The translations under genes and the position numbers were made by a program. Positions 128 to 14,069 of a DNA stretch of 64,000 nt are shown here, in pieces. Below the pieces are notes generated by a model. The model was not told the DNA's origin, ran no database searches, and worked only from the letters and a program-made list of their open reading frames with translations. Each line of letters starts with the position of its first letter. Positions within the stretch are counted from its first letter, which is position 1. Location: the NCBI GenBank assembly GCA_026393115.1, contig JAPLAU010000028.1:1-64000 (forward strand). Direction: 5' to 3'. This stretch comes from Actinomycetota bacterium (GTDB lineage: Bacteria > Actinomycetota > Actinomycetes > S36-B12 > CAIYMF01).

Positions 128-187
128 GTGCCCGTACGGGGATTCTTTGGTCACAAGATGCCCCCAGAGGGGCTCTTCGGTGCCAGG
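128..187 (+). repeat. Two degenerate copies of a dispersed 30-bp repeat
   Basis: The stretch starting GTGCCCGTACGGGGATTC at 128 is followed exactly 30 bases later (158) by a diverged copy containing CAGAGGGGCTCTTCGGT. The first copy matches the reverse complement of the 30-bp tandem repeat at 3664-3723 in about 24 of 26 bases. Read on the plus strand it would encode VPVRGFFG. There is no credible start codon, so I treat it as a dispersed repeat. Confidence 0.6.
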
Positions 188-2581: not shown

Positions 2582-3237
2582 GAAGCGAGCAGAACATGAG
2601 CATCTACACCCCGAGCAGTGCCTACGCCGCGCCCTCGTCGCGCTACATCCTGCCTGAATTCCGTGAGCGCAGCGCCAACGGCGAGCGCGTGCACAACCCC
2701 TACACCAAGCTTTTCGAAGAGCGCATCATCTTCCTCGGTGTGCAGATCGACGATGCGTCGGCCGACGACGTGATGGCGCAGTTGCTGTGCCTGGAATCAC
2801 TCGATCCCGACCGCGATATTCAGATCTACATCAACTCGCCCGGTGGCTCGTATACGGCGATGACGGCGATCTACGACACCATGCAGTTCGTCAAGCCTGA
2901 TGTGCAGACCGTGTGTCTGGGTCAGGCGGCGTCGGCTGCTGCGGTGCTGCTCGCTGCCGGTAGCCCCGGTAAGCGATTCGCGCTTCCACACGCACGCATC
3001 CTCATCCACCAGCCCTACACCGAGGGCGGCGGTCAGGCCTCCGATGTCGAGATTCAGGCCAACGAGATTCTGCGCATGCGTGCCGAGATGGAGGGCATCA
3101 TTGCCTTCCACACTGGCAAGACGCCTGAGCAGATCGAAAAGGACATCGAGCGCGACAAGATCCTCACGGCCTCCGCGGCCAAGGAGTACGGCATCATCGA
3201 CGAGGTCATCGCCTCGCGTAAGGCCAGCGCTTCCTGA
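2578..3237 (+). CDS. clpP2: ATP-dependent Clp protease proteolytic subunit (ClpP2)
   Basis: Second ClpP paralogue, 219 residues, with NSPGGSY, Ser119 (QAASAAAVL), His144 (LIHQP) and Asp193 (ERD). It overlaps the clpP1 stop by four bases. An alternative start is Met7 (MSIYTPSS), closer to typical ClpP2 N-termini. Its last five codons (KASAS) and the bases after the stop are partly duplicated 359 bp downstream (3582-3641), so the island beside it has rearranged against the clpP2 end without damaging the gene. Confidence 0.95.
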
Positions 3238-3293
3238 CCGGTTACGAGTCGAGCAGACGGTCGGCGCTGCCGGCCGCGGTCATAGTCCGTCCT

Positions 3294-3422
3294 TTACCTC
3301 GTCAAAATAGGACGGCCGCCGGAGACGATCTCAAGGTCGTCGTCGGTGAGTGCGTCGTCAGTTTGGGGGGCGGCGGGTGCGCCGGGGTAGTTGGTGGCAC
3401 CTGACTCGGGGCTAGGGCCCAT
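3294..3422 (-). CDS. RiPP-like precursor peptide A (tail RPILTR)
   Basis: A 42-residue peptide on the minus strand beginning MGPSPESGATNYPGAP and ending LTDDDLEIVSGG followed by RPILTR. The ATG at 3422 has AAGGAG 12 nt upstream. The acidic LxxxDLExVSGG end is the hallmark of double-glycine leaders of ribosomally made, modified peptides; the six residues after GG would be the core. Two paralogues follow the same plan (3785-3907 and 5065-5184), with near-identical leaders and unrelated tails. That conservation in a peptide this short is the main evidence that it is translated. The modification and final product are unknown. Confidence 0.72.
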   Translation of the reverse strand: MGPSPESGATNYPGAPAAPQTDDALTDDDLEIVSGGRPILTR

Positions 3423-3443
3423 GGTGGCTGTCTCCTTCTGTTT

Positions 3444-3516
3444 GATTCACTGGTCGAAGCGTTAGCTCACGATGGAGACGATAGACCCTGACATCGCTAA
3501 TGAATCACAGTGGAAC
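3444..3516 (-). promoter_or_regulatory. Conserved 73-bp upstream block of peptide gene A
   Basis: Nearly identical (two differences) to 3927-3999 and placed at the same distance from the start codon in both peptide genes, so it probably carries their promoter or operator. It is bracketed by an inverted 7-mer: TGATTCA (3443-3449) and TGAATCA (3501-3507). On the minus strand a TATCGT hexamer could be a -10 element. No -35 element is convincing. Confidence 0.45.
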
Positions 3517-3663
3517 TTCGGAGTAGTGTGGGAACGACCCGCTCGATAGTGCCTGCCGATGCGGTTATCGGCTCGGGTGATGCCAGCGCTTCCTGATCGG
3601 TTACGAGTCCAACTGACCGACGGCGCTGCGGGCCGCGGTCACCTCGTCGCCGCCACCGTAGGT

Positions 3664-3723
3664 CACCGATTGACCAAAGAATCCCCGGATGGGCACCGAT
3701 TGACCGAAGAATCCCCGGAATGC
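3664..3723 (-). repeat. Two tandem 30-bp repeats
   Basis: Two head-to-tail units, 3664-3693 and 3694-3723, each contain CACCGATTGACC then AAGAATCCCCGGA with one internal A/G change. On the minus strand they would read RGFFGQSVPI twice in an open frame ending LDS-stop near 3603, but there is no ATG or ribosome site. Diverged copies in the other orientation lie at 128-187, so this is a dispersed family. Confidence 0.65.
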
Positions 3724-3784
3724 AATCTCGTGAGGCTCGGGGTGGGGGTTCGTGGTGGTTGTCTTCCTTACGTTGCTGCGCCGG

Positions 3785-3907
3785 TCAGCGCGCTACAAGG
3801 CCGCCGGAGACGATCTCGAGGTCGTCGTCGGTGAGTGCGTCGTCGGCGTGGGGTGCGGCGGGTGCGCCGGGGTAGTCGGTTGCACCTGACTCGGGGCTAG
3901 GGCCCAT
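3785..3907 (-). CDS. RiPP-like precursor peptide B (tail LVAR)
   Basis: A 40-residue peptide, MGPSPESGATDYPGAP at the N-terminus and LTDDDLEIVSGG then LVAR at the C-terminus. The ATG at 3907 is preceded by GAGGAG. Its leader differs from peptide A at only a few residues (N/D, Q/H, T/A), while the tail after GG is completely different. Substitutions confined to the tail fit a precursor family with a conserved recognition leader and a variable core. It lies 135 nt downstream of the glycosyltransferase on the same strand but has its own copy of the 73-bp upstream block, so it may be independently transcribed. Confidence 0.72.
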   Translation of the reverse strand: MGPSPESGATDYPGAPAAPHADDALTDDDLEIVSGGLVAR

Positions 3908-3926
3908 GGTGGTTTTCTCCTCGGAT

Positions 3927-3999
3927 GATTCACTGGTCGAAGCGTTAGCTCACGATGGAGATGATAGACCTTGACATCGCTAATGAATCACAGTGGAAC
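3927..3999 (-). promoter_or_regulatory. Conserved 73-bp upstream block of peptide gene B
   Basis: Second copy of the block at 3444-3516. The inverted 7-mers are TGATTCA (3926-3932) and TGAATCA (3984-3990). On the minus strand TATCAT lies at the position of TATCGT in the other copy. It sits between the glycosyltransferase stop (4043) and peptide gene B. Confidence 0.45.
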
Positions 4000-4042
4000 C
4001 ACGGTGTCGTGCGAGAGGTCCCGCTTCGGTGACGAAAGTCCC

Positions 4043-5056
4043 CTAGGTCGCGCGGTGGCCCTCGTGCGGTGCCCACGCAGCCGGCGACAGCGTCGCTGAG
4101 AGTCGAGAAGATTCCAGCGGCAGCAAGGCCCTGCTTCGCCTGCTCGTGGCGATTAGGTGCTCGCATTCGCGTTCCAGCTCGTTGCGCTCCTCGTGAGTGG
4201 GCGACCAGTGTGTGAGGGCGTGATCGAGCAGCTCGCTCAGCAGTTCCTCTGGGTCGGCCGGCAGATGTGAGGAAGCGTCGAGGCCGAGGGCGGGCACCGT
4301 GGGGCCAAGCCAGCAGCCCAATCGCGAATACACGATGTGTGAGGTCAGCAGGTGCATCTCAACTAGTGCTCGCCGCCGATGCACAGCACTGCTCTGGCGG
4401 AAGTACCTGCGCCAGTCAGTGAGTGCTTCCGGCAGTATGCGCAACGCGCCGCGCTCGCTGAGTTGCCACGCCGCACTCCAGTCGTCACTGAGCGGATGTG
4501 AGTTGTCGAAGCCGCCGATGGCGCGCAGGTCGTGTGCGCGAATCATCGAGGTTGGGCCCAGCGGAGTGTCGAAGGGCAGGCGCCACTTCACGGTGAGGTC
4601 GCGCATCGGGAAAGGTGGTCGCTCATCGGGTCGAACTGGTGGTAGGGGGATGCCCCACTGATCGATGCGACGAAAGTCGCTGGCCACGAGTACGACCTCG
4701 GGGTTGTTGCGCAGCACCTCGACTTGCTGCGCCAGGCGTCCGGGACGCATGACGTCGTCGGAATCGAGTAAGGCGATCAGCGGTGCGCGGGCATGCAGCA
4801 GCGCGAGATTGCGCCCCTCAGGTGCTGACAGCGCAGTCGGGCTGGTCACAACTGTGATGCGAGAGTCGAGTGAGGCAAGGTGGGCCAGATAGTCGCCCAC
4901 ACCATCGAGGGTGCTCGAATCGGCGACGATGATTTCTAAGTCGGCTACCGACTGCCGACGCACACTGGCGAGCGCAGCGGCTAGCCATTCGAAGCGGTTG
5001 TGCACGGCGATCAGCACGCTGATCGCGGGGGGTTCTCCAAGGTCGGTTGGTTGCAC
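4043..5056 (-). CDS. Family 2 glycosyltransferase in the peptide locus
   Basis: A 337-residue GT-A type glycosyltransferase. The N-terminal ISVLIAVHNRFEWLAAALAS block is the nucleotide-sugar fold start, with ADSSTLDG, then the DxD metal site in ALLDSDDVM (about residue 100) and the acceptor-side SDDW motif. There is no signal peptide or membrane segment, so it is probably cytosolic. The GTG at 5056 lies 8 nt after the stop of peptide gene C and lacks a clear ribosome site, suggesting coupling to that peptide. The open frame extends upstream to 5581, but that part is antisense to the PqqD-like gene and overlaps peptide C. Given its neighbours I infer it could glycosylate the peptides or a product made from them; nothing in the sequence shows the acceptor. 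Confidence 0.85.
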   Translation of the reverse strand: MQPTDLGEPPAISVLIAVHNRFEWLAAALASVRRQSVADLEIIVADSSTLDGVGDYLAHLASLDSRITVVTSPTALSAPEGRNLALLHARAPLIALLDSDDVMRPGRLAQQVEVLRNNPEVVLVASDFRRIDQWGIPLPPVRPDERPPFPMRDLTVKWRLPFDTPLGPTSMIRAHDLRAIGGFDNSHPLSDDWSAAWQLSERGALRILPEALTDWRRYFRQSSAVHRRRALVEMHLLTSHIVYSRLGCWLGPTVPALGLDASSHLPADPEELLSELLDHALTHWSPTHEERNELERECEHLIATSRRSRALLPLESSRLSATLSPAAWAPHEGHRAT

Positions 5057-5064
5057 CGTGTCAG

Positions 5065-5184
5065 CTAGATTCGATAACCGCCGGAGACGATCTCGAGATC
5101 GTCGTCGGTGAGTGCGTCGTCGGTTCGCGGTGTGGCGGGTGCGCCGGGGTAGTCGGTGGCACCCTTCTGGGTCGGACCGCTCAT
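5065..5184 (-). CDS. RiPP-like precursor peptide C (tail YRI)
   Basis: A 39-residue peptide: MSGPTQKGATDYPGAP, then the shared LTDDDLEIVSGG, then only YRI before TAG. GGGAG stands upstream of the ATG at 5184. Its extreme N-terminus differs from peptides A and B, but from GATDYPGAPA onward the leader is the same, so it is an older paralogue and not part of the recent A/B duplication. It begins the glycosyltransferase transcript and is divergent from the PqqD-like gene, with 122 nt between the two starts. Confidence 0.72.
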   Translation of the reverse strand: MSGPTQKGATDYPGAPATPRTDDALTDDDLEIVSGGYRI

Positions 5185-5294
5185 GGAGTGTCTCCCTTGC
5201 GAACTGTGCCCGGAGTGGACCGCAATTCATCCTAGGCATCGTCGACGGTGACGAACACCGTGGACCCGCGGTGGTTCGGTGACGAGTACTCGTC

Positions 5295-5300
5295 GATACT
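5295..5300 (+). promoter_or_regulatory. Putative leaderless -10 element of the PqqD-like gene
   Basis: GATACT ends six bases before the ATG at 5307, the same geometry as the TANNNT elements upstream of many other genes here. It fits that pattern less well (G at the first position). No Shine-Dalgarno sequence is present. Confidence 0.4.
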
Positions 5301-5306
5301 GCTCCC

Positions 5307-5993
5307 ATGCCCAGCGAACTTCGCGCCGATTCTCGCGTGGTGGTCAGTTCCGACACGGTGACCGAGGACCTTGATGTCGGGGGAGTGGTGGTCAATCTGC
5401 ACAACCTGCGACCCACCTCGTTTGACCGTGTGGGGATGGCGATGTGGAAAGCGCTGAGCGCCGCACCCACCATCGAGGGTGCGGTCCAGATGCTGATGAA
5501 GGAATTCGCGGTCGAGCGCGAGGTACTCGAACGTGATCTCATCGCGTTCGCCCAGCAACTTGCCGAACTCGACCTTGTCACGGTTGCTGAGGGCGCCGCC
5601 CTACCGGCGAGCCGGCGAGCATCGCAGGATGCGCACGTGACCGTCGATGCCCACGCTGTGATGGGCCAGCGTCATCGCGACTGGATTGACGCCCTCATTA
5701 CGAATACCCGCGAGAGTGGCGTGCTCGGAAACGTCACGACGATCGACTCAGCGGATCAGATCGATTCCGGCGACAACCCGATCGCAGTTCTTCACGTCAC
5801 TGCGGGCTGCCCGCCTCTGGCTCGTGAAGAGTTCAGCGACCTGTGTCGTCGGGTGCCGCCGGGTGGGGTTGTGATTGTTGACGACTACAACCATCCTTCG
5901 TGGCAGCAGTTGGTCGATACCGTTCGATCCGATCGCCAGCTCACGTCGCCACTCGAACCGATGGACTGGTCGAGCGTGTGGTGGCGCATGTAA
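5307..5993 (+). CDS. PqqD-like (RiPP recognition element) protein with truncated TylF-like methyltransferase C-terminus
   Basis: 228 residues. Residues ~15-95 (GVVVNLHNLRPTSFDRVG, MWKALSAAPTIEGAV, a helical stretch, then LAELDLV) follow the PqqD fold, the winged-helix domain that binds RiPP leader peptides. Residues ~115-228 contain VPPGGVVIVDDY, typical of the C-terminal half of TylF/MacO-type SAM methyltransferases. The N-terminal SAM-binding glycine motif is missing, and the usual metal-site Asp strand reads LHVTAG. It may therefore be a degenerate methyltransferase kept as a scaffold. It is divergent from the peptide C-glycosyltransferase pair, so I infer that it recognises the shared leader. 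The domain assignments are by eye. Confidence 0.7.
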   Translation: MPSELRADSRVVVSSDTVTEDLDVGGVVVNLHNLRPTSFDRVGMAMWKALSAAPTIEGAVQMLMKEFAVEREVLERDLIAFAQQLAELDLVTVAEGAALPASRRASQDAHVTVDAHAVMGQRHRDWIDALITNTRESGVLGNVTTIDSADQIDSGDNPIAVLHVTAGCPPLAREEFSDLCRRVPPGGVVIVDDYNHPSWQQLVDTVRSDRQLTSPLEPMDWSSVWWRM

Positions 5994-6122: not shown

Positions 6123-7409
6123 GTGGCGCGCATCGGCGAGAGCGGTGATCTGCTCAAGTGCTCCTTCTGCGGAAAGAGCCAGAAGCAGGTCAAAAAGCTG
6201 ATCGCCGGCCCCGGCGTCTACATCTGCGACGAATGCATCGATCTGTGTAACGAGATCATTGAAGAGGAGCTACAAGAGTCCTCCGAGGTCACATTCACTG
6301 AACTGCCCAAGCCTCGCGAAATCTACGAATTCCTCGACCAGTACGTCATCGGCCAAGATGTCGCCAAGAAGGCACTGTCAGTGGCGGTCTACAACCACTA
6401 CAAGCGAGTGCAGGCAGACGTCGGCGAGCGCACGCGCGAAGACTCCGTTGAACTGTCGAAGTCGAACATCTTGCTGCTCGGCCCCACCGGTTCGGGCAAG
6501 ACACTGCTGGCACAGACGTTGGCTCGCATGCTCAATGTTCCGTTCGCCATTGCCGACGCCACGGCATTGACCGAAGCCGGCTACGTCGGTGAAGACGTTG
6601 AGAACATTCTGCTCAAATTGATTCAGGCGGCTGACTACGACGTCAAGAAGGCCGAAACCGGAATCATCTATATCGACGAAATCGACAAGATCGCCCGCAA
6701 GAGCGAAAACCCCTCCATCACTCGCGATGTCAGTGGCGAAGGTGTGCAGCAGGCACTGCTCAAGATTCTCGAGGGAACCACGGCGTCAGTTCCGCCCCAG
6801 GGCGGGCGCAAGCACCCGCATCAGGAGTTCATCCAGATCGACACCACGAATGTGCTGTTCATCGTGGGTGGCGCTTTCGCCGGGCTCGACAAGGTGATCG
6901 AGGCGCGTATCGGCAAGAAGTCACTGGGCTTCACGGTCAACATCTCTGACGAAACCGATTCCGAGTCCAACCCACATAACATCTTCGGCCGGGTCATGCC
7001 CGAAGACATGCTCAAGTACGGCATGATCCCCGAATTCATCGGCCGCCTGCCGGTGTTCACCTCGGTGACGGCCCTTGATTCAGAGTCACTCGTGAAGGTG
7101 CTCACCGAGCCGCGCAATGCGTTGGTGCGTCAGTACCAGAAACTGTTTGACCTTGACGGTGTCGAACTCGAATTCAGCGAGGATGCGCTCGAAGCAATTG
7201 CTGCCCAGGCGCTCAAGCGTGGTACCGGCGCACGTGGACTGCGCGCGATCCTCGAAGAGGTGCTGCTCAACGTCATGTACGAGGTGCCGAGCCGCGACGA
7301 CGTGGCCCGCGTGGTCATCACCGGTGAAGTGGTCGACAACAACGTCAACCCGACGCTGGTGCCCCGTGAAACTCCGGCTCGTCGCGAACGTCGCGATAAG
7401 ACCGCCTGA
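6123..7409 (+). CDS. clpX: ATP-dependent Clp protease ATP-binding subunit ClpX
   Basis: AAA+ unfoldase that recognises tagged substrates and feeds them to ClpP. The 428-residue product has the N-terminal zinc-binding domain (C13-x2-C16 and C35-x2-C38), Walker A GPTGSGKT, Walker [11 protein letters not shown], the GYVGEDVE pore-region block, sensor sequences near FIGRLPV and the small C-terminal AAA+ subdomain ([14 protein letters not shown]). The GTG start is preceded by GGAGG. It is separated from clpP2 by the peptide island, whereas these genes are usually close together in actinobacteria, so the island probably inserted into a conserved clpP-clpX neighbourhood. Confidence 0.97.
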
Positions 7410-7413
7410 GGTA

Positions 7414-8043
7414 TTACTCGCCCGCCATTCCGGGTAGCAGCACCATCAGGTAATAGGCGGCAAGTGCGGCTACCACGATCACGAGAGCGATGAGCATCAG
7501 CAGTCGACGCTGTGAGCCAGTATCGACCGTCTCGACCGACCCAGGTGTGGAGACAACAACCGGGGTTTCAGCCTTGGCAGGTTTGGCAGGTTTCGCGGGT
7601 TTCGCGGGTTTGGCAGCCTTGGGTGCCTTGGTCGCCTTCTCAGGTTTGCGGTCGACGCGGTGTGTGGGCACGTAGGGGCCAGGCTCAGCAGGCTCAGCGG
7701 GCGCCACCGGCGCCCCTTGAGGTGCGGGCAAGGTGAGCAGCGCTGTGGGACCTGCGTTGGCAGGGGCGTAGCCGTTGGAGGACATGGCTCCCACGAGGAC
7801 CGGAGCCTTGGGCGCTGGCAGGCTGGCGAGCGTAATCGATGGCGAGGCGACCACCGGAACCGGAACGGCCGGGGCTGGCAACGTGATGAGGGCCGGCGTC
7901 GTGGCTTCGGCACGCAGTGGCGGCGGGATGACGGTCGCCGTTGTATCCGGCAGCGGAACGCCCGGAAGGATCGTGGCCGCGTTAGACATCTCTGCTGGGC
8001 GTATCCCCGACGTTTCGTCCGCCGTGGAACTCTTCCTACCCAT
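7414..8043 (-). CDS. Pro/Ala-rich tail-anchored membrane protein of unknown function
   Basis: 209 residues. The long N-terminal region is rich in Pro, Ala, Thr and Val without recognisable domains. It is followed by a lysine repeat of the type KAAKPAKPAKPAKPAK (about residues 140-160) and a single hydrophobic helix near the C-terminus (RRLLMLIALVIVVAALAAYYLMVLL). The protein would be a tail-anchored membrane protein with a basic cytoplasmic region. The ATG at 8043 has GGGAGG upstream. It is convergent with clpX, four bases from its stop. I recognise no family. Confidence 0.75.
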   Translation of the reverse strand: MGRKSSTADETSGIRPAEMSNAATILPGVPLPDTTATVIPPPLRAEATTPALITLPAPAVPVPVVASPSITLASLPAPKAPVLVGAMSSNGYAPANAGPTALLTLPAPQGAPVAPAEPAEPGPYVPTHRVDRKPEKATKAPKAAKPAKPAKPAKPAKAETPVVVSTPGSVETVDTGSQRRLLMLIALVIVVAALAAYYLMVLLPGMAGE

Positions 8044-8129
8044 TGGTCCTCCCGTACACCTCGCTACCGGGTAAATCCCGGCTCACAGGTGTTATCGGCA
8101 GATCGGGGGGAAAAACTTGAGCCTCGCGG

Positions 8130-10706
8130 CTAGTTGTCTGCGGCAGGCTCTAATTCGACCGTCACCTCGACCGATCCTTCGGCCGCACTCAACTCGAGTT
8201 GACCGATCGAACCGGCGGCCAACAGGTCGCCTCGGGCCGCCTCGACGCGCACGATCTCGTCCTGGGGGCCACGCACGGTGGCGATCAGCACGCGGTGGCG
8301 CATTGAGACCTTGGCCTCAGACTTGGTTTTGCGAACGGCGCTGAGCACCAAGGCGGCGGTTGCGAGCAGTCCCGGATCGCCATCGGCGGCCAGCGCCCGG
8401 ATTTGATCGGCCTCGGGCCACGTGGCCGTGTGCACCGAGCCTGACCGCCACCACGACCAGACCTCTTCAGTGACGAACGGCAGGAAGGGTGCGAATAGTC
8501 GCAGCAGGGTGTCGAGAGCCACTCCGAGGGTCATCAGGGCCGAACGCTGGGCGGCTTCGCCTTGGGCGCCGTACGCCCGCTCCTTCACCAGTTCGACATA
8601 GTCGTCGGTGAAGTCCCAGAAGAAGGTTTCAGTGGCCTCAAGTGCTCGCGTGTAGTCGTACGCTGCAAATGAGGTGGTGGCGTCGTTGACCACCGTGGCT
8701 AGCCGTGCCAGCAAGGCTCGGTCGAGCGGCTCGGTGATGTCAGCCGGATCGCCGGTGACTTGGGCGTTCAGGGCCAAGCCGAACTTCGAGGCGTTGAGAA
8801 TCTTGATCGCCAATCGGCGGCCGATTTTCATCTGGCCCACATCGAAGGCGGTGTCAGTTCCGGGTCGACCACTCGCCGCCCAGTAGCGCACCGCATCGGA
8901 ACCATGCTCGTCGAGCAGGCCCATGGGGGTGACGACATTGCCCTTCGACTTCGACATCTTCTTGCGGTCGGGGTCGAGAATCCAGCCGCTGATGGCCGCG
9001 TCAGTCCAGGGCAGGCACTCTTCCTCGAGATGGGCGCGCACCACGGTCGAGAAGAGCCAGGTGCGGATGATCTCGTGTGCCTGTGGACGCAGGTCATAGG
9101 GCCACACGGCGGCCCACAGTTGCGCGTCATGCTCCCAGCCGCCAGCAATCTGCGGTGACAGCGACGATGTGGCCCAGGTGTCCATGACGTCGGCGTCGCC
9201 GATGAAGCCATTCGCCTGTCCGCGCTGGGCTTCGGTGTAACCGGCCGGGCAGTCCGACGACGGGTCGATCGGAAGGTCGGCTTCGGCTGGAGTCAGCGGT
9301 GAATCCCACTGGGGCTGGCCGTGCTCGTCGAGTAGGTACCACAACGGAACCGGTACGCCGAAGAAACGCTGACGTGACACCAGCCAGTCGCCGTTGAGGC
9401 CCTCAACCCAGTTGCGGTAGCGCACCTGCATGTGGGCGGGGTGCCAGTTCAGTTCGCGCCCTCGAGCGAGGAGTTGTTCACGTAGCGGCAGGTCGCGTCC
9501 ACCGTTGCGCAGGTACCACTGACGGGTGGTCACGATCTCGAGCGGCTTGTCACCCTTTTCGAAGAACTTCACCTGGTGTGTGATGGCTCGCGGTTCGCCG
9601 ATCAGGTCGCCAGAGTCGCGCAGCATCTGTACGGTGCGCTCACTTGCAGTGAAGGCCGTCGTTCCGATGATCGATTCGTACGCAGTTTGCCCCGCGGGAT
9701 CGGAAATCCACTCGGGCACTTCCGGAAGAATGCGGCCATCCCAGCCGATGACCGGGCGAGTCGGCAACTGCAATTCGCGCCACCAAATGACGTCGGTGAG
9801 GTCACCGAACGTACAGATCATCGCGATGCCTGACCCCTTTTCGGGATCGGCGAGCGGGTGTGCCACCACGGGAACGTCGACCTTGAACACAGGCGTGGTC
9901 ACGGTGGTACCAAACAGTGCTTGGTACCGCTCGTCGTCGGGGTGGGCGACGAGTGCCACACACGCCGATAGCAGTTCCGGTCGCGTGGTCTCGATGTGTA
10001 CGGGGTCGTTGCCAGCGCGTGCAAAGGCGATGCGGTGGTAGGCGCCGGGCCGCTCCCGATCTTCCAGCTCGGCCTGGGCAACCGCTGTTCGGAAGGTGAC
10101 GTCCCAGAGGGTGGGCGCCTCAGCTTGGTAGGCCTCTCCACGCGCGAGGTTGCGCAAGAACGCACGCTGAGACACGCTGCGCGCGTTGGAGTCGATGGTT
10201 TGGTAGGTGCGGCCCCAGTCGATCGAGAGTCCGAGTCGACGGAAGAGTTGCTCGAAGGCTTGCTCGTCTTCTTCGGTGAGTTGTTCACACAGTGCGATGA
10301 AGTTGCCGCGCGAGATGGGTAACTGGTCTTTGCCCGGTTCTGCCGGGGGAGTGAAGTGCGGATCGAATGGAATCGACGGGTCGCAGCGCACTCCGTAGAA
10401 GTTCTGCACGCGGCGCTCGGTGGGAAGGCCGTTGTCATCCCAGCCGATGGGATAAAAGACGCTCTTGCCCCGCATGCGTTGGAATCGCGCGATCAGGTCG
10501 GTGTGGGTGTAGGAGAAAACGTGACCGACGTGTAGTGACCCGGAAACCGTGGGCGGGGGAGTGTCGATGGAGTAGGCGTTGACACGCGCTGTTGATGCGT
10601 CGAAGCGGTAGATGCCGGTCTCTTCCCAGGCCGCTGCCCAGCGGTCTTCAATGCCATCGATGGTGGGCTTATCCGGCAGTCCGGTCGACCGTGCGCTCTG
10701 CTCCAT
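8130..10706 (-). CDS. valS: Valyl-tRNA synthetase
   Basis: Class I aminoacyl-tRNA synthetase that charges tRNA-Val and edits misactivated threonine. The 858-residue product has the HIGH-type motif [10 protein letters not shown], the CP1 editing domain, the KMSKS motif ([10 protein letters not shown]) and the anticodon-binding domain. The C-terminus ([18 protein letters not shown] onward) lacks the long coiled coil of some bacterial ValRS. I chose ATG at 10706 because TAGGAT lies exactly 7 nt upstream, giving a leaderless transcript; an in-frame ATG at 10715 overlaps that hexamer. It is divergent from folC. Confidence 0.95.
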
Positions 10707-10713
10707 GCGGCCC

Positions 10714-10736
10714 ATCCTAGGCAGCGCCGTTAGGCT
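10714..10736. promoter_or_regulatory. Divergent leaderless -10 elements for valS and folC
   Basis: On the minus strand TAGGAT (10719-10714) is 7 nt before the valS ATG. On the plus strand TAGGCT (10731-10736) is 7 nt before the folC GTG. Neither gene has a Shine-Dalgarno sequence. Confidence 0.6.
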
Positions 10737-10743
10737 CGCTCCC

Positions 10744-12120
10744 GTGAGCGTCGATGACTTGTCCCCTCTAGAGCGTCTGCACGCCGACTTAATGTCTCGG
10801 TGGCCGGAAACCAAGATTGAGCCGAATTTGGCGCGTATTGCCCGCTTGATGGAATTGCTCGGTGATCCGCAGCGCTCGTACCGCGTCATTCACGTCACCG
10901 GCACCAACGGCAAGACGTCAACCGCGCGCATGACCGAATCGCTGCTGCGCGCATTCGGTCTGAGTACCGGTCTCTACACCAGCCCTCATTTGGCCCGCGT
11001 CACCGAACGTATTCAACTCTCCGGTGAACCCGTTTCCGATGAGCGATTCATCGAGGCATACGAAGAGCTTCAGCCCTACATCGAGATTGTCGACGCCGAG
11101 TCGGTCACCGCCGGCGGTCCGGCCATGTCGTACTTCGAAGTCATTACCGGTCTTGCCCTGGCGATGTTCGCTGATGCGCCCGTCGACGTTGCGGTCATTG
11201 AGGTCGGCATGGGTGGCACTTGGGATGCCACCAATGTCGCCGACGGTCAGGTCGCGATCGTCACGCCCATCGACCTCGACCACGCCGAATACCTTGGCCC
11301 GACGATCGCGGATGTGGCGTTGGAAAAGTCGGGCATCATCAAGCCCGAGGCCACTGCTGTCCTCGCGGCCCAGCCCATTGAGGCTGCCGAAATCCTGATT
11401 GCGCGGTGCGCGGCTGTGGGAGTTGAACCACTGCGCGAGGGAGTCGAATTCGGTGTGGTCGAGCGAGAGGTTGCTGTCGGCGGTCAACTTTTGACTCTGC
11501 AGACGTCGGGTTCTGAAGGAGTGACCATCTACTCCGAACTGCTGCTGCCGTTGCACGGCGCCCATCAAGCAGAGAATGCCGGCCTCGCGCTTGCCGCGGT
11601 GGCGGCATTCCTTTCCGACGGAACGCGCGCGCTCGATATTGACATCGTGCGCGAAGGATTCGCGTCGGTGGTGTCTCCCGGGCGACTTGAAATCGTGCGA
11701 CGTTCACCTACGGTCCTGCTCGATTCCGCGCACAATCCGCATGGCGCGCGAGCACTTGCCGATGCATTGGGCGATTCCTTCACGTTCTCGTACCTCGTGG
11801 GCGTGGTGGCGGTTCTCTCCGACAAGGACTCGCGGGCGATGTTGGAAGCGCTCGAGCCAGTGCTTGACGAAGTGATCGTCACTCGCAGCCTTTCTCCGCG
11901 AGCGACTCCGGTCGATCAACTCGCAGAAGTTGCGCGCTCGGTGTTCGGCGATGATCGGGTGAGTGTGGCTCACACCATTCCGGATGCACTCGAACTTGCG
12001 ATCGCACGCGCTGACGAGTCGGCCACCGAAACCGGTGGATCAGGCGCTGGTGTGTTGGTGACTGGATCAGTGGTCACCGCAGCAGAGGCGCGCATGCTGC
12101 TAGCGGGCAACGACGCATGA
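10744..12120 (+). CDS. folC: Folylpolyglutamate synthase / dihydrofolate synthase
   Basis: Mur-ligase-family enzyme that adds glutamate to dihydropteroate and to folates. The 458-residue product shows the P-loop [13 protein letters not shown], the TSPHL motif ([13 protein letters not shown]), [10 protein letters not shown], and the C-terminal domain with [13 protein letters not shown]. The GTG at 10744 is placed by the TAGGCT element 7 nt upstream; the frame is open further upstream but is antisense to valS there. It overlaps the next gene by four bases (ATGA), so folC, the DUF4233 gene and perhaps ndk are read in one direction. Confidence 0.95.
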
Positions 12121-12443
12121 GAGTTCTCGGATCAACAGTTCTCGCACTGGAAGCAATCATGTTGCTTCTCGCGATTCCTGTAGCACTTACGGTTACGCGT
12201 AGCCAAAGCACCACCATGGTCGTGGTGGTGTTCGTGGGGCTTGCGATTCTGTGCATTCTTGCCCTCGGCGTAGTGGCTCGGCCGCAAGGTCCTGCGGTGG
12301 GCTGGGTACTGCAAGCGTTGGTCATCGCGACCGGATTCCTCGTGCCGGTGATGTTCGTTCTCGGCGCTGTTTTCGCGTTGCTGTGGTTTGCTGCCGTGCG
12401 ACTCGGTACCCGCGCAGACGCAGAGCGCCGCGCGCCGCGATAG
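12117..12443 (+). CDS. DUF4233-like small membrane protein
   Basis: 108 residues with four hydrophobic segments (VLALEAIMLLLAIPVAL, MVVVVFVGLAILCILALGVV, VGWVLQALVIATGFLVPVMFVLG, ALLWFAAVRLG) and a short basic tail. A small integral membrane protein in exactly this position, between folC and ndk, is the actinobacterial DUF4233 family. Its function is unknown. It is translationally coupled to folC through the ATGA overlap. Confidence 0.85.
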   Translation: MRVLGSTVLALEAIMLLLAIPVALTVTRSQSTTMVVVVFVGLAILCILALGVVARPQGPAVGWVLQALVIATGFLVPVMFVLGAVFALLWFAAVRLGTRADAERRAPR

Positions 12444-12446
12444 AGT
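12441..12446 (+). promoter_or_regulatory. Leaderless -10 element of ndk
   Basis: TAGAGT lies six bases before the ndk GTG, with no ribosome-binding sequence between. Confidence 0.55.
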
Positions 12447-12452
12447 CACGCC

Positions 12453-12860
12453 GTGACTGAACGCACCCTTGTCCTTGTCAAGCCTGATGGCGTCGAGCGC
12501 GGCCTCGTAGGAGAGGTTCTGAGTCGCATTGAGCGCAAAGGCTTCGTCCTTGTTGCCCTTGAATTGCGCACCCTCACTCGTGAGGTGGCAGAAGACCACT
12601 ACGGCGAGCACGCCGGCAAGCCTTTCTTCGGTGACCTCGTCGATTTCATCACGTCGGCTCCGCTTCTCGCAGCCGTCGTTGAAGGCCCCGATGTGATCGT
12701 GTCCTGGCGCTCGATGATGGGGGCCACGAACCCGGTCAACGCCGCGCCTGGCACCATTCGTGGCGACTTGGCCAGCGAAATGCAGAACAACGTGACGCAC
12801 GGATCTGACTCGCCCGAGTCGGCCGCGCGTGAGATCGCGCTGTTCTTCCCCTCACTGTGA
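12453..12860 (+). CDS. ndk: Nucleoside diphosphate kinase
   Basis: Transfers the gamma phosphate from ATP to nucleoside diphosphates through a phosphohistidine. The 135-residue product is of normal length, opens with [24 protein letters not shown] and carries the active-site histidine in [12 protein letters not shown]. It ends with the usual EIALFF. The GTG at 12453 is placed by the upstream TAGAGT. The stop codon lies inside the first of three palindromic repeats. Confidence 0.97.
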
Positions 12861-12905
12861 GCGGCTCTTCTCCTCACAGTGAGCAGCTCTTCGCCTCACT
12901 GTGAG
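12851..12905. repeat. Three palindromes at exact 22-bp spacing after ndk
   Basis: CTCACTGTGAG (12851-12861), CTCACAGTGAG (12873-12883) and CTCACTGTGAG (12895-12905) are 11-bp palindromes whose starts are 22 bp apart. The bases between them are also repeated (CGGCTCTTC / CAGCTCTTC). They lie between ndk and mreB and could form alternative hairpins (terminator or attenuator) or a phased protein-binding array. There is no T-run. Confidence 0.7.
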
Positions 12906-12994
12906 CGGCACTGCATTCGCGGTGGAAGGTCCGAAGATGTGACCGAATTGGGAAGTTTGTTCCTTCGATGGTCGTCAGTGCCCTGCTAACTGAC

Positions 12995-13000
12995 TACGAT
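12995..13000 (+). promoter_or_regulatory. Leaderless -10 element of mreB
   Basis: TACGAT lies 7 nt before the mreB GTG at 13008. There is no Shine-Dalgarno sequence. Confidence 0.55.
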
Positions 13001-13007
13001 AGGACTC

Positions 13008-14069
13008 GTGGCTTCCCGTTCAGCAGGCTTCTTCTCGCCCATGTCCGCCAACTCGTTCATCGGCCGTGACATGGCGGTGGACCTCGGCACGGCAAACACT
13101 CTTGTCTATGTGCGTGGCCGCGGTATCGCACTGAACGAGCCCTCTGTGGTGGCCATCAACCAGACGAGTGGCGGAATCCTCGCCGTGGGCTCTGAGGCCA
13201 AGCGCATGATCGGCCGCACGCCCGGCAACATCGTGGCCATCCGTCCGCTCAAGGACGGCGTCATCGCCGACTTCGATACCACCGAGCGCATGTTGCGCTA
13301 CTTCATTCAGAAAGTGCACAAGCGCCGTCACCTTGCCAAGCCTCGACTCGTGGTGTGTGTTCCCTCGGGTATCACCGGTGTCGAACAGCGCGCCGTCAAG
13401 GACGCTGGCTACGCGGCCGGTGCGCGCAAGGTGTTCATCATCGAAGAGCCCATGGCCGCAGCGATTGGTGCCGGACTTCCCGTGCACGAACCCACCGGCA
13501 ACATGGTCGTTGACATTGGTGGCGGAACCACTGAGGTTGCAGTGATCTCGCTCGGTGGCATCGTGACGAGCCTGTCGATTCGCGTCGGTGGAGATGAACT
13601 CGACAATGCGATCATCACGTACGTCAAGAAGGAATACAGCTTGATGCTCGGTGAGCGCACTGCCGAGGAAATCAAGATGGCCATCGGATCGGCGTTCCCG
13701 ACTCCCGATGAGCCGCACGCTGAAATCCGCGGACGCGACCTCGTATCCGGCCTTCCTCGCACCATCGTGGTCACAGCCGAAGAAATTCGCCGCGCCATTG
13801 ATGAACCGGTCAGCGCCGTTGTCGACGCCGTCAAGACAACCCTCGATCGCACACCGCCAGAACTGTCGGGCGACATCATGGACCGTGGCATCGTGCTCAC
13901 GGGTGGTGGTGCACTGCTCAAGGGCCTCGATGAGCGGCTGCGTCACGAAACGGGCATGCCGATCGTCATCGCTGAATCACCCCTCGACTGCGTGGCGATG
14001 GGTTCGGGCAAGTGCGTCGAAGAGTTTGAGGCTCTCCAGCAGGTTCTCATCAGCGAGCCACGCCACTAG
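13008..14069 (+). CDS. mreB: Rod-shape-determining actin homologue MreB
   Basis: Actin-like ATPase that organises lateral wall synthesis under the membrane. The 353-residue product has phosphate-1 loop [10 protein letters not shown], the [13 protein letters not shown] block, phosphate-2 loop [18 protein letters not shown], the [10 protein letters not shown] helix and the adenosine motif [17 protein letters not shown]. The N-terminus carries a short extension ([16 protein letters not shown]) before the conserved GRDMAVDLG. The genes mreB, mreC, mreD, mrdA and rodA follow in order and form the elongasome cluster. Confidence 0.97.

Follow-up and report, generated by a model that had tools for sequence, protein, structure and literature searches.

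The clpP2 and clpX genes of an Actinomycetota bacterium flank an inserted locus of three genes of 39-42 residues together with a GT2 glycosyltransferase and an RRE protein of PqqD type, which is apparently recycled, judging from its sequence, from the lasso-peptide pathway of the same genome. We give an even chance to the reading that this locus encodes a lasso-derived, cyclase-less mini-RiPP, in which Arg-containing tails of 3-6 residues would be presented by the RRE, modified by the GT2 and freed at a double glycine. The window, that is, the whole 64,000-nucleotide stretch of DNA that was analyzed, contains the following features, with the evidence for each in brackets.

3294..3422, minus strand: precursor 1, 42 aa, tail RPILTR (frame, alignment, ribosome site, C39 rule)
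3443..3533: upstream repeat D2 of precursor 1, 91% to 3926-4016
3557..3641: repeat D3, duplicated clpP2 3' end plus flank, 84% to 3198-3282
3785..3907, minus strand: precursor 2, 40 aa, tail LVAR (frame, alignment, ribosome site, C39 rule; orthologue in the second species, G001)
3926..4016: upstream repeat D2 of precursor 2
4043..5056, minus strand: GT2 glycosyltransferase, 337 aa (PF00535, 1e-22)
5065..5184, minus strand: precursor 3, 39 aa, tail YRI (frame, alignment, ribosome site, C39 rule)
5307..5993, plus strand: RRE protein, 228 aa, PqqD domain plus TylF-type methyltransferase remnant (PF05402, 3.4e-10)
5385..5579, plus strand: PqqD/RRE domain (LppB contact residues mapped)
5832..5987, plus strand: TylF C-terminal piece, residues 176-227 (PF05711, 1.7e-10; aligned to solved O-methyltransferases)

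Composition and distribution of the locus

A sequence-only reading had placed three short genes beside a GT2 and a PqqD protein and taken leader, tail, leader-binding domain and GT2 together as a RiPP-type locus. Frames, alignment and ribosome sites confirm the former, and the latter is supported, the locus being retained in a second species of the genus (G001). The same reading had noted that no radical SAM enzyme, peptidase or transporter is adjacent, and this holds for the interval between clpP2 and clpX, in which frames and a Pfam scan revealed none of these. The interval likewise lacks a cyclase, which is encoded on C27 of the same genome, as well as an SpI-like peptidase, an HprK-like kinase and an NTP transferase, and the GT2 and RRE are the only maturation genes within the locus. 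Promoter and terminator scans found nothing.

The locus is intact in two species and persists as a truncated remnant in two more (G077 and G082), where just its two 3' ends are present. Homologous short frames, whose absence from relatives would have refuted the sequence-only reading, do occur within the genus; outside it, a sample of 394 genomes of the class gave none that was convincing. The weak matches, five elsewhere in the class (E 9e-4 to 2.6e-3) and four within the family (E 0.007-0.05), lie mostly within long frames and were treated as chance. A scan for GG leaders covered 26 of 36 PqqD places in the order plus 4 further loci and gave no match. Viral contigs contained no relative of the RRE protein, and a plasmid search with it returned 4 records annotated as TylF-type methyltransferases. 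Within one open-licence library, we found no literature on such a locus and none joining lasso peptide, TylF and glycosyltransferase.

Precursor leaders, tails and the double-glycine signature

Alignment of the three window precursors yielded 26 invariant columns, with divergence beginning after GG, so that the tails RPILTR, LVAR and YRI vary as had been proposed. The sister species contributes two further precursor frames, one of them the orthologue of precursor 2 with an identical LVAR tail, and has no copy of precursor 3 at the corresponding place. In all five precursors the leader is 36 residues long and a purine-rich ribosome site lies upstream. A DNA pattern for DLEIVSGG gave six matches, the three precursors at 0-1 mismatches and the other three at 3 mismatches, compared to a mean of 0.22 on shuffled sequence. 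That the three frames arose by chance or represent non-coding repeats is highly improbable: they do stand within a repeat-rich stretch, and the LVAR orthologues are too alike (dS 0.067) to show selection on the frame by themselves, but the five ribosome sites, the constant leader, the occurrence of two published motifs in one frame and the position beside the RRE and GT2 in both species all argue for genuine genes.

The four distinct tails seen in the two species are all 3-6 residues long. A tail of 3-6 codons arises at only 8% of random reading points across the window, or 18% when these are taken from intergenic DNA within the locus, so the shortness of the tails is informative. Their variability is another matter. 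Repeat D1, which starts at 3314, shows homology between copies that stops at the border of GG and tail, and the sequence past the tails is also unlike between copies; a variable tail alone is therefore no proof of diversified cores. Arg is present in every tail seen, Asp and Glu are absent from all five, and the LVAR and RVRL tails also lack Ser and Thr. Predicted folds of the tail regions did not improve on shuffled sequence in precursors 1 and 2 (z 0.34 and 0.38), while precursor 3 had a z of -1.8. As a separate observation, the first tail residue is R, L or Y in all four distinct tails (a 0.7% chance, with the residue class picked once the tails were known); a link to N-degrons or Clp proteases would be speculation.

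The second half of the leader reads L-x4-L-x2-V-x-G-G. This fits the rule described for C39 substrates, namely GG with hydrophobic residues at -4, -7 and -12 (PMC10885120), which applies to five of five precursors and, among 466 window frames of 25-60 residues with a tail of at most 8, to these three alone. The precursors thereby resemble the double-glycine peptides of C39/PCAT systems, with their Nif11, NHLP and similar leaders; unlike those described in PMC10885120, they have a non-adjacent exporter, a tail of 3-6 residues and an RRE-type motif within the leader. One C39 exporter gene is present in the window genome (G000) and one in G001. It is closest to NHLM_micro_ABC1, scoring 775 bits, under the NHLM model cut-off of 853, and lies on C27, while the precursors are on C5. 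Given a C39-type leader and a single C39 exporter elsewhere in the genome, peptidase and transporter may act on the precursors in trans. Because C39 genes occur widely across the order (43 of 166), the co-occurrence of precursor and exporter is weak evidence. A GG scan of the exporter neighborhood was empty, and the small frames there, compared by eye between G000 and G001, were shadows of long genes plus one lipoyl-domain-like protein.

Kinship to the lasso cluster and to other RiPP systems

The sequence-only reading could match the locus to no class. However, a lasso-peptide cluster in the same genome (C27/C12) carries full-length relatives of both the GT2 (35% identity over 292 aa) and the RRE protein, the latter as a full PqqD-TylF fusion, which suggests that the window locus branched off from lasso tailoring genes without taking a cyclase along. 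Lasso clusters are also present in G001 and G028. The shared features extend to Y...P leaders, the YPGAP part of the window leaders resembling the lasso leader motif, albeit with proline at Y+4 rather than at Y+3 as in YxxP. In contrast with the lasso clusters, the window locus has no cyclase, B2 protease, kinase or discrete RRE, its methyltransferase is truncated, and the leader end and tail of its precursors differ. Lasso peptide cores carry an Asp or Glu ring residue at position 7-9. The window precursors were accordingly rejected as lasso peptides, having no cyclase in the locus and tails of 3-6 residues without Asp or Glu.

The GT2 begins with a GTG codon 8 nt past the stop of precursor 3 and has no clear ribosome site of its own by eye, so its earlier description as coupled to one precursor is fair. 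For the RRE protein, the PqqD domain and the divergent orientation of the gene had been recognized and the C-terminal TylF piece missed. This TylF/NovP/MycF-type piece lacks the SAM-binding half and should no longer transfer methyl. The AlphaFold model of the fusion, made with one sister sequence, had a mean pLDDT of 48.9 and was not used. The nearest PDB relatives of the RRE are TbiB1 and LppB, and of the 11 Tyr/Pro-contact residues named for LppB, a solved relative (PMC13381572), the contacts are mostly kept in the window protein (4/11 identical and 6/11 similar, 10/11 together). The pocket residues are nearly alike in the window protein and the lasso fusions, making cross-binding possible. 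This bears on a decidedly unlikely alternative, in which the tail is not the product: either the tail is a cap whose removal exposes the GG of a small modified peptide, or the leader-like peptides are decoys or helpers occupying lasso RRE domains. Conservation before GG and divergence after it would suit a cap or a core-less leader; against this, the leader ends in the manner of a C39 substrate, whose post-GG part is exported, and a dedicated GT2 and RRE adjoin the peptides.

Between the window and G001, the GT2 (dN 0.091, dS 0.378, dN/dS 0.24) and RRE (dN 0.117, dS 0.322, dN/dS 0.36) frames are under relaxed purifying selection, five neighbor genes having dN/dS values of 0.02-0.08. These raised ratios are what would be expected of a relic, in which copied lasso tailoring genes would be left with no cyclase, protease, kinase or methyltransferase function and with core-less, leader-only precursors from which little or nothing is made. 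The truncated TylF part, the lack of maturation genes besides GT2 and RRE, the reduction to two 3' ends in G077 and G082 and the missing precursor 3 in G001 point the same way. Nonetheless, the frames are intact in both species with an excess of third-position changes (GT2 81/142, p 6e-9; RRE 48/100, p 0.0017), the ribosome sites are good and the 36-residue leader is constant, and we regard a relic as unlikely, if a serious contender.

In glycocins, the core contains nested disulfides and is glycosylated at Ser, Thr or Cys. The earlier judgement that a classic glycocin is unlikely stands, with no Cys in any of the five precursors and no Ser or Thr in the LVAR and RVRL tails. Mycofactocin, whose RRE is MftB and whose core is Val-Tyr, is alike in its short precursor, RRE protein and GT2-type enzyme acting on a very small core, and unlike in that the window tails differ from Val-Tyr. 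Mycofactocin identity was rejected, since the best match to the MftC radical SAM maturase (TIGR03962) in two genomes reached 47 bits against a cut-off of 265; the window GT2 scored 44 against the MftF model (cut-off 280). MftF itself is a GT2-type enzyme described as glycosylating a very small core (PMC7491314). RREs fused to PF00535 glycosyltransferases are known (PMC12710340) and show the same pairing of RRE and GT2, whereas in the window these are separate genes and the RRE is fused to a methyltransferase remnant.

The linear polyphosphorylated peptides (LPPs) of Bacillota are likewise cyclase-less, with a lasso-type RRE, a conserved leader and a variable C-terminus, and LPP genomes, like the window genome, may also carry lasso clusters (PMC13381572). 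As described there, LPP clusters encode an SpI-like peptidase, HprK-like kinase, NTP transferase and MsbA-like transporter, with the leader consensus YxxPxVLxHQxIxFETxxS; the window locus differs in its GT2, methyltransferase remnant, GG leader and 3-6 residue tails. It was rejected as an LPP locus, as kinase, peptidase and NTP transferase are missing between clpP2 and clpX and the five leaders are unlike the consensus.

Proposed pathway and significance

Starting from what the sequences establish (the genes, their lasso kinship, the mostly kept RRE contacts, the C39 rule, one C39 exporter per genome, and relaxed purifying selection on the GT2 and RRE frames), the lasso-derived, cyclase-less pathway would run as follows. 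Within the 228-aa protein, the RRE domain would grip the leader at Y-P-G-A-P and offer the precursor to the GT2, which would add a sugar, the action of the GT2 on these peptides, the target residue and the sugar all being conjectural. The single C39 (NHLM-like) peptidase-exporter would then cut the 36-residue leader after GG in trans and export a 3-6 residue Arg-containing peptide, the tail being the presumed product. The sequence-only reading had speculated that such products could be signals or cofactor-like peptides. Counting against this are the Y+4 proline, the non-adjacent exporter below its cut-off, the raised dN/dS, the likeness between copies that ends at the tail and the fact that the intact locus is known from just two species. 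A long shot is that the locus represents a separate RiPP class that diverged from lasso tailoring in a single non-Bacillota lineage. Its 36-residue leader would serve two unrelated machines, a lasso-type RRE at the start and a C39 exporter at the end, and the tails would be Arg-glycosylated, Arg being the sole side-chain nucleophile common to every tail seen.

On our best reading, the locus is a variation on a known kind of RiPP, conceptually near the LPPs (2026) and mycofactocin. Its RRE is moreover joined to a methyltransferase that is retained although it seems to have lost catalysis. If true, the proposed pathway would offer a second example, this one outside Bacillota, of a cyclase-free peptide arising from a lasso pathway, and it predicts tiny secreted glycopeptides, which at that size would escape mining by core length or by an adjacent maturase.

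Genes of the locus and their occurrence among relatives

The sequence-only reading had described three short frames with a common leader beside a family 2 glycosyltransferase (GT2) and a divergent PqqD protein, here termed the RRE protein after its leader-binding domain, and this arrangement was borne out. The genes, lying between clpP2 and clpX, are as follows.

3294-3422, minus strand: precursor 1, predicted frame of 42 aa
3785-3907, minus strand: precursor 2, predicted frame of 40 aa
4043-5056, minus strand: GT2 glycosyltransferase, starting 8 nt past precursor 3
5065-5184, minus strand: precursor 3, predicted frame of 39 aa
5307-5993, plus strand: RRE protein, divergent, in which domain search finds PqqD and, at the C-terminus, a TylF piece

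Alignment of the three precursors gave 26 invariant columns, and a purine-rich ribosome site precedes all three as well as both copies in G001, a second species of the genus. A protein search of the window's own genome, G000 (3.5 Mb, 34 contigs, 95% complete), found no further precursors. Scanning of genome contigs returned one locus, L004, which has the same gene set, again flanked by clpX and clpP2; it was counted as one genome with G001:C285, since the match position agrees. The homologous short frames anticipated in relatives are thus present within the genus, G001 having two precursors with the tails LVAR and RVRL; no precursor was found upstream of its GT2. Among 394 genomes sampled from the class, strong precursor matches (E < 1e-24) were confined to G000 and G001, and weak ones occurred in five others (E 9e-4 to 2.6e-3).

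clpX was detected in 15 of the 17 genomes of the family. The locus appears to have been inserted in this genus, because in 11 of the 13 such genomes outside it the distance from clpP2 to clpX is 147-411 nt (between matched ends) and nothing there matches GT2 or RRE; of the other two, one is interrupted by a contig end and G005 has a permease-like gene adjoining clpX (by eye). All that G077 and G082, from another family, have of the two genes is their ends, placed head to head (about 120 residues for GT2, 119 for RRE-TylF), and therefore the truncated TylF form predates the genus or was transferred. Between these two genomes the TylF remnant is identical across 127 codons, and dN and dS of the GT2 remnant are 0.031 and 0.097.

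Constraint on the GT2 and the RRE protein is real yet relaxed. Third-position changes number 81/142 for GT2 (p 6e-9), 48/100 for RRE (p 0.0017) and 28/62 for the TylF piece (p 0.035), and comparison of G000 with G001 gives dN/dS values of 0.24 (GT2) and 0.36 (RRE protein, equal in its two halves), vs 0.02-0.08 for the neighbours trigger factor, clpP1, clpP2, clpX and valS. The precursor 2/LVAR pair (dS 0.067) is too alike for a selection test.

The two halves of the leader

The first half of the leader reads AT(D/N)YPGAP, and the closest PDB relative of the RRE domain is TbiB1, followed by LppB and PbaB1. The LppB residues contacting Tyr and Pro, as named in excerpts of PMC13381572, were mapped via an ungapped alignment with the offset chosen to bring all 11 letters into agreement: T30, V35, D70 and F74 are identical in the window RRE protein, L32, N33, C39, I56, Y60 and V67 become F, D, M, L, F and L, and V63 becomes E. 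The PqqD-TylF fusions of lasso-type clusters have almost the same contact set. The leader proline at Y+4 counts against an RRE-motif match.

L-12, L-7, V-4, G-2 and G-1 occur in 5/5 precursors, a pattern that is the rule for C39 double-glycine peptidase-exporters in the excerpted text of PMC10885120; when the tail is also limited to 8 residues, it selects just the three precursors among 466 window frames of 25-60 aa. G000 and G001 each have one C39 gene (nearest model NHLM_micro_ABC1, 775 bits vs a cut-off of 853), that of G000 lying not on the window's contig but on contig C27, about 12 kb away from the lasso genes there; a scan of C39 loci found no GG-leader frames near it. Across the order, 43 of 166 genomes have a C39 gene; within the family the figure is 3 of 17. 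Of the 30 C39-gene loci scanned, several of them overlapping, 3 contain a total of five small frames whose GG leader is similar, at a distance of 4-7 kb from the C39 gene, and reversed DNA yielded none. Such peptides, in relatives from the order, are at L101 11986-12316, L103 890-1749 and L111 6642-6788.

Tails, repeats and the possible target of the glycosyltransferase

Repeat analysis showed joint duplication of the leader, about 90 nt ahead of it and the clpP2 3' end, similarity between copies ending at the GG/tail border. The duplicated clpP2 3' end and flank at 3557-3641 (84%) is a trace of the tandem duplication that gave precursors 1 and 2. A dispersed repeat, GGGGATTCTTTGGTCA, occurs at 138-153 (+), 3671-3686 (-) and 3701-3716 (-), three window matches at up to 2 mismatches vs 0.01 expected, and also in the G001 stretch.

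All four distinct tails have 3-6 codons; from random reading points such a length arises 8% of the time across the window and 18% of the time within the intergenic DNA of this locus. Each of the four also includes Arg and lacks acidic residues, a post hoc observation with a chance of 4% among short tails. LVAR and RVRL lack Ser, Thr, Cys and Tyr, so that if GT2 acts on the tail, just Arg or the peptide end remains; if it acts on the leader, cleavage at GG removes the sugar. This choice of target is the weakest point of the model.

Lasso-type relatives and known systems

A lasso-type cluster on C27 of the own genome encodes an asparagine-synthetase-like protein (PF00733), a GT2 with 35% identity to the window GT2 (292 aa), a full PqqD-TylF fusion matching the window RRE protein (38% over 87 aa, 39% over 70 aa), an HPr-kinase-like protein (26.2 bits, where the Pfam cut-off is 33.3) and three precursors whose leaders carry EPYSKPAEP. 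Contig C12 has, near its end, a B2-type protease domain together with a discrete PqqD, next to a frame resembling the NTP transferase of G001 (by eye). Comparable lasso-type genes occur in G001 and G028; the G028 B2 protein exceeds its NCBIfam cut-off (67 bits vs 33), and the cyclase and kinase fall under theirs. Full-length PqqD-TylF fusions occur at four places in 3/394 class genomes. The lasso-type clusters L026-L029, each with GT2, the fusion and an HPr-kinase-like protein, have 2-4 small precursors; to the extent that the cut could be located, the usual penultimate Thr is missing from their leaders.

Among known systems, the nearest in concept are the linear polyphosphorylated peptides (LPPs) of Bacillota and, where a glycosylated mini-core is concerned, mycofactocin; excerpts of PMC12710340 describe fusions of RREs with GT2. 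At a third RRE locus, L085 (G000:C9:36000-55000) 6993-13645 with L086 (G001:C11), genes for a PqqD protein, two GT2-like proteins and an ABC exporter are accompanied by frames that by eye resemble an NTP transferase and a kinase; neither a cyclase nor a precursor was found there. It is LPP-like, outside Bacillota.

The methyltransferase part of the PqqD-TylF fusion matches both NovP and mycinamicin III 3''-O-methyltransferase. The substrates of these two enzymes are sugars of glycosylated antibiotics. In the window RRE protein the TylF middle, including the SAM-binding region, is absent, and the LDGD motif is replaced, DDY being retained. GT2 and the sugar methyltransferase would together form a tailoring pair; the window locus would retain only its sugar-transfer half. 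The RiPP-type character first proposed for the locus stands; its supposed lack of roots in any known class does not, given its lasso-cluster relatives in the own genome. The sequence points to a lasso-derived, cyclase-less RiPP-type locus whose leader joins an RRE-type motif to a C39-type end; its chemistry is inferred.
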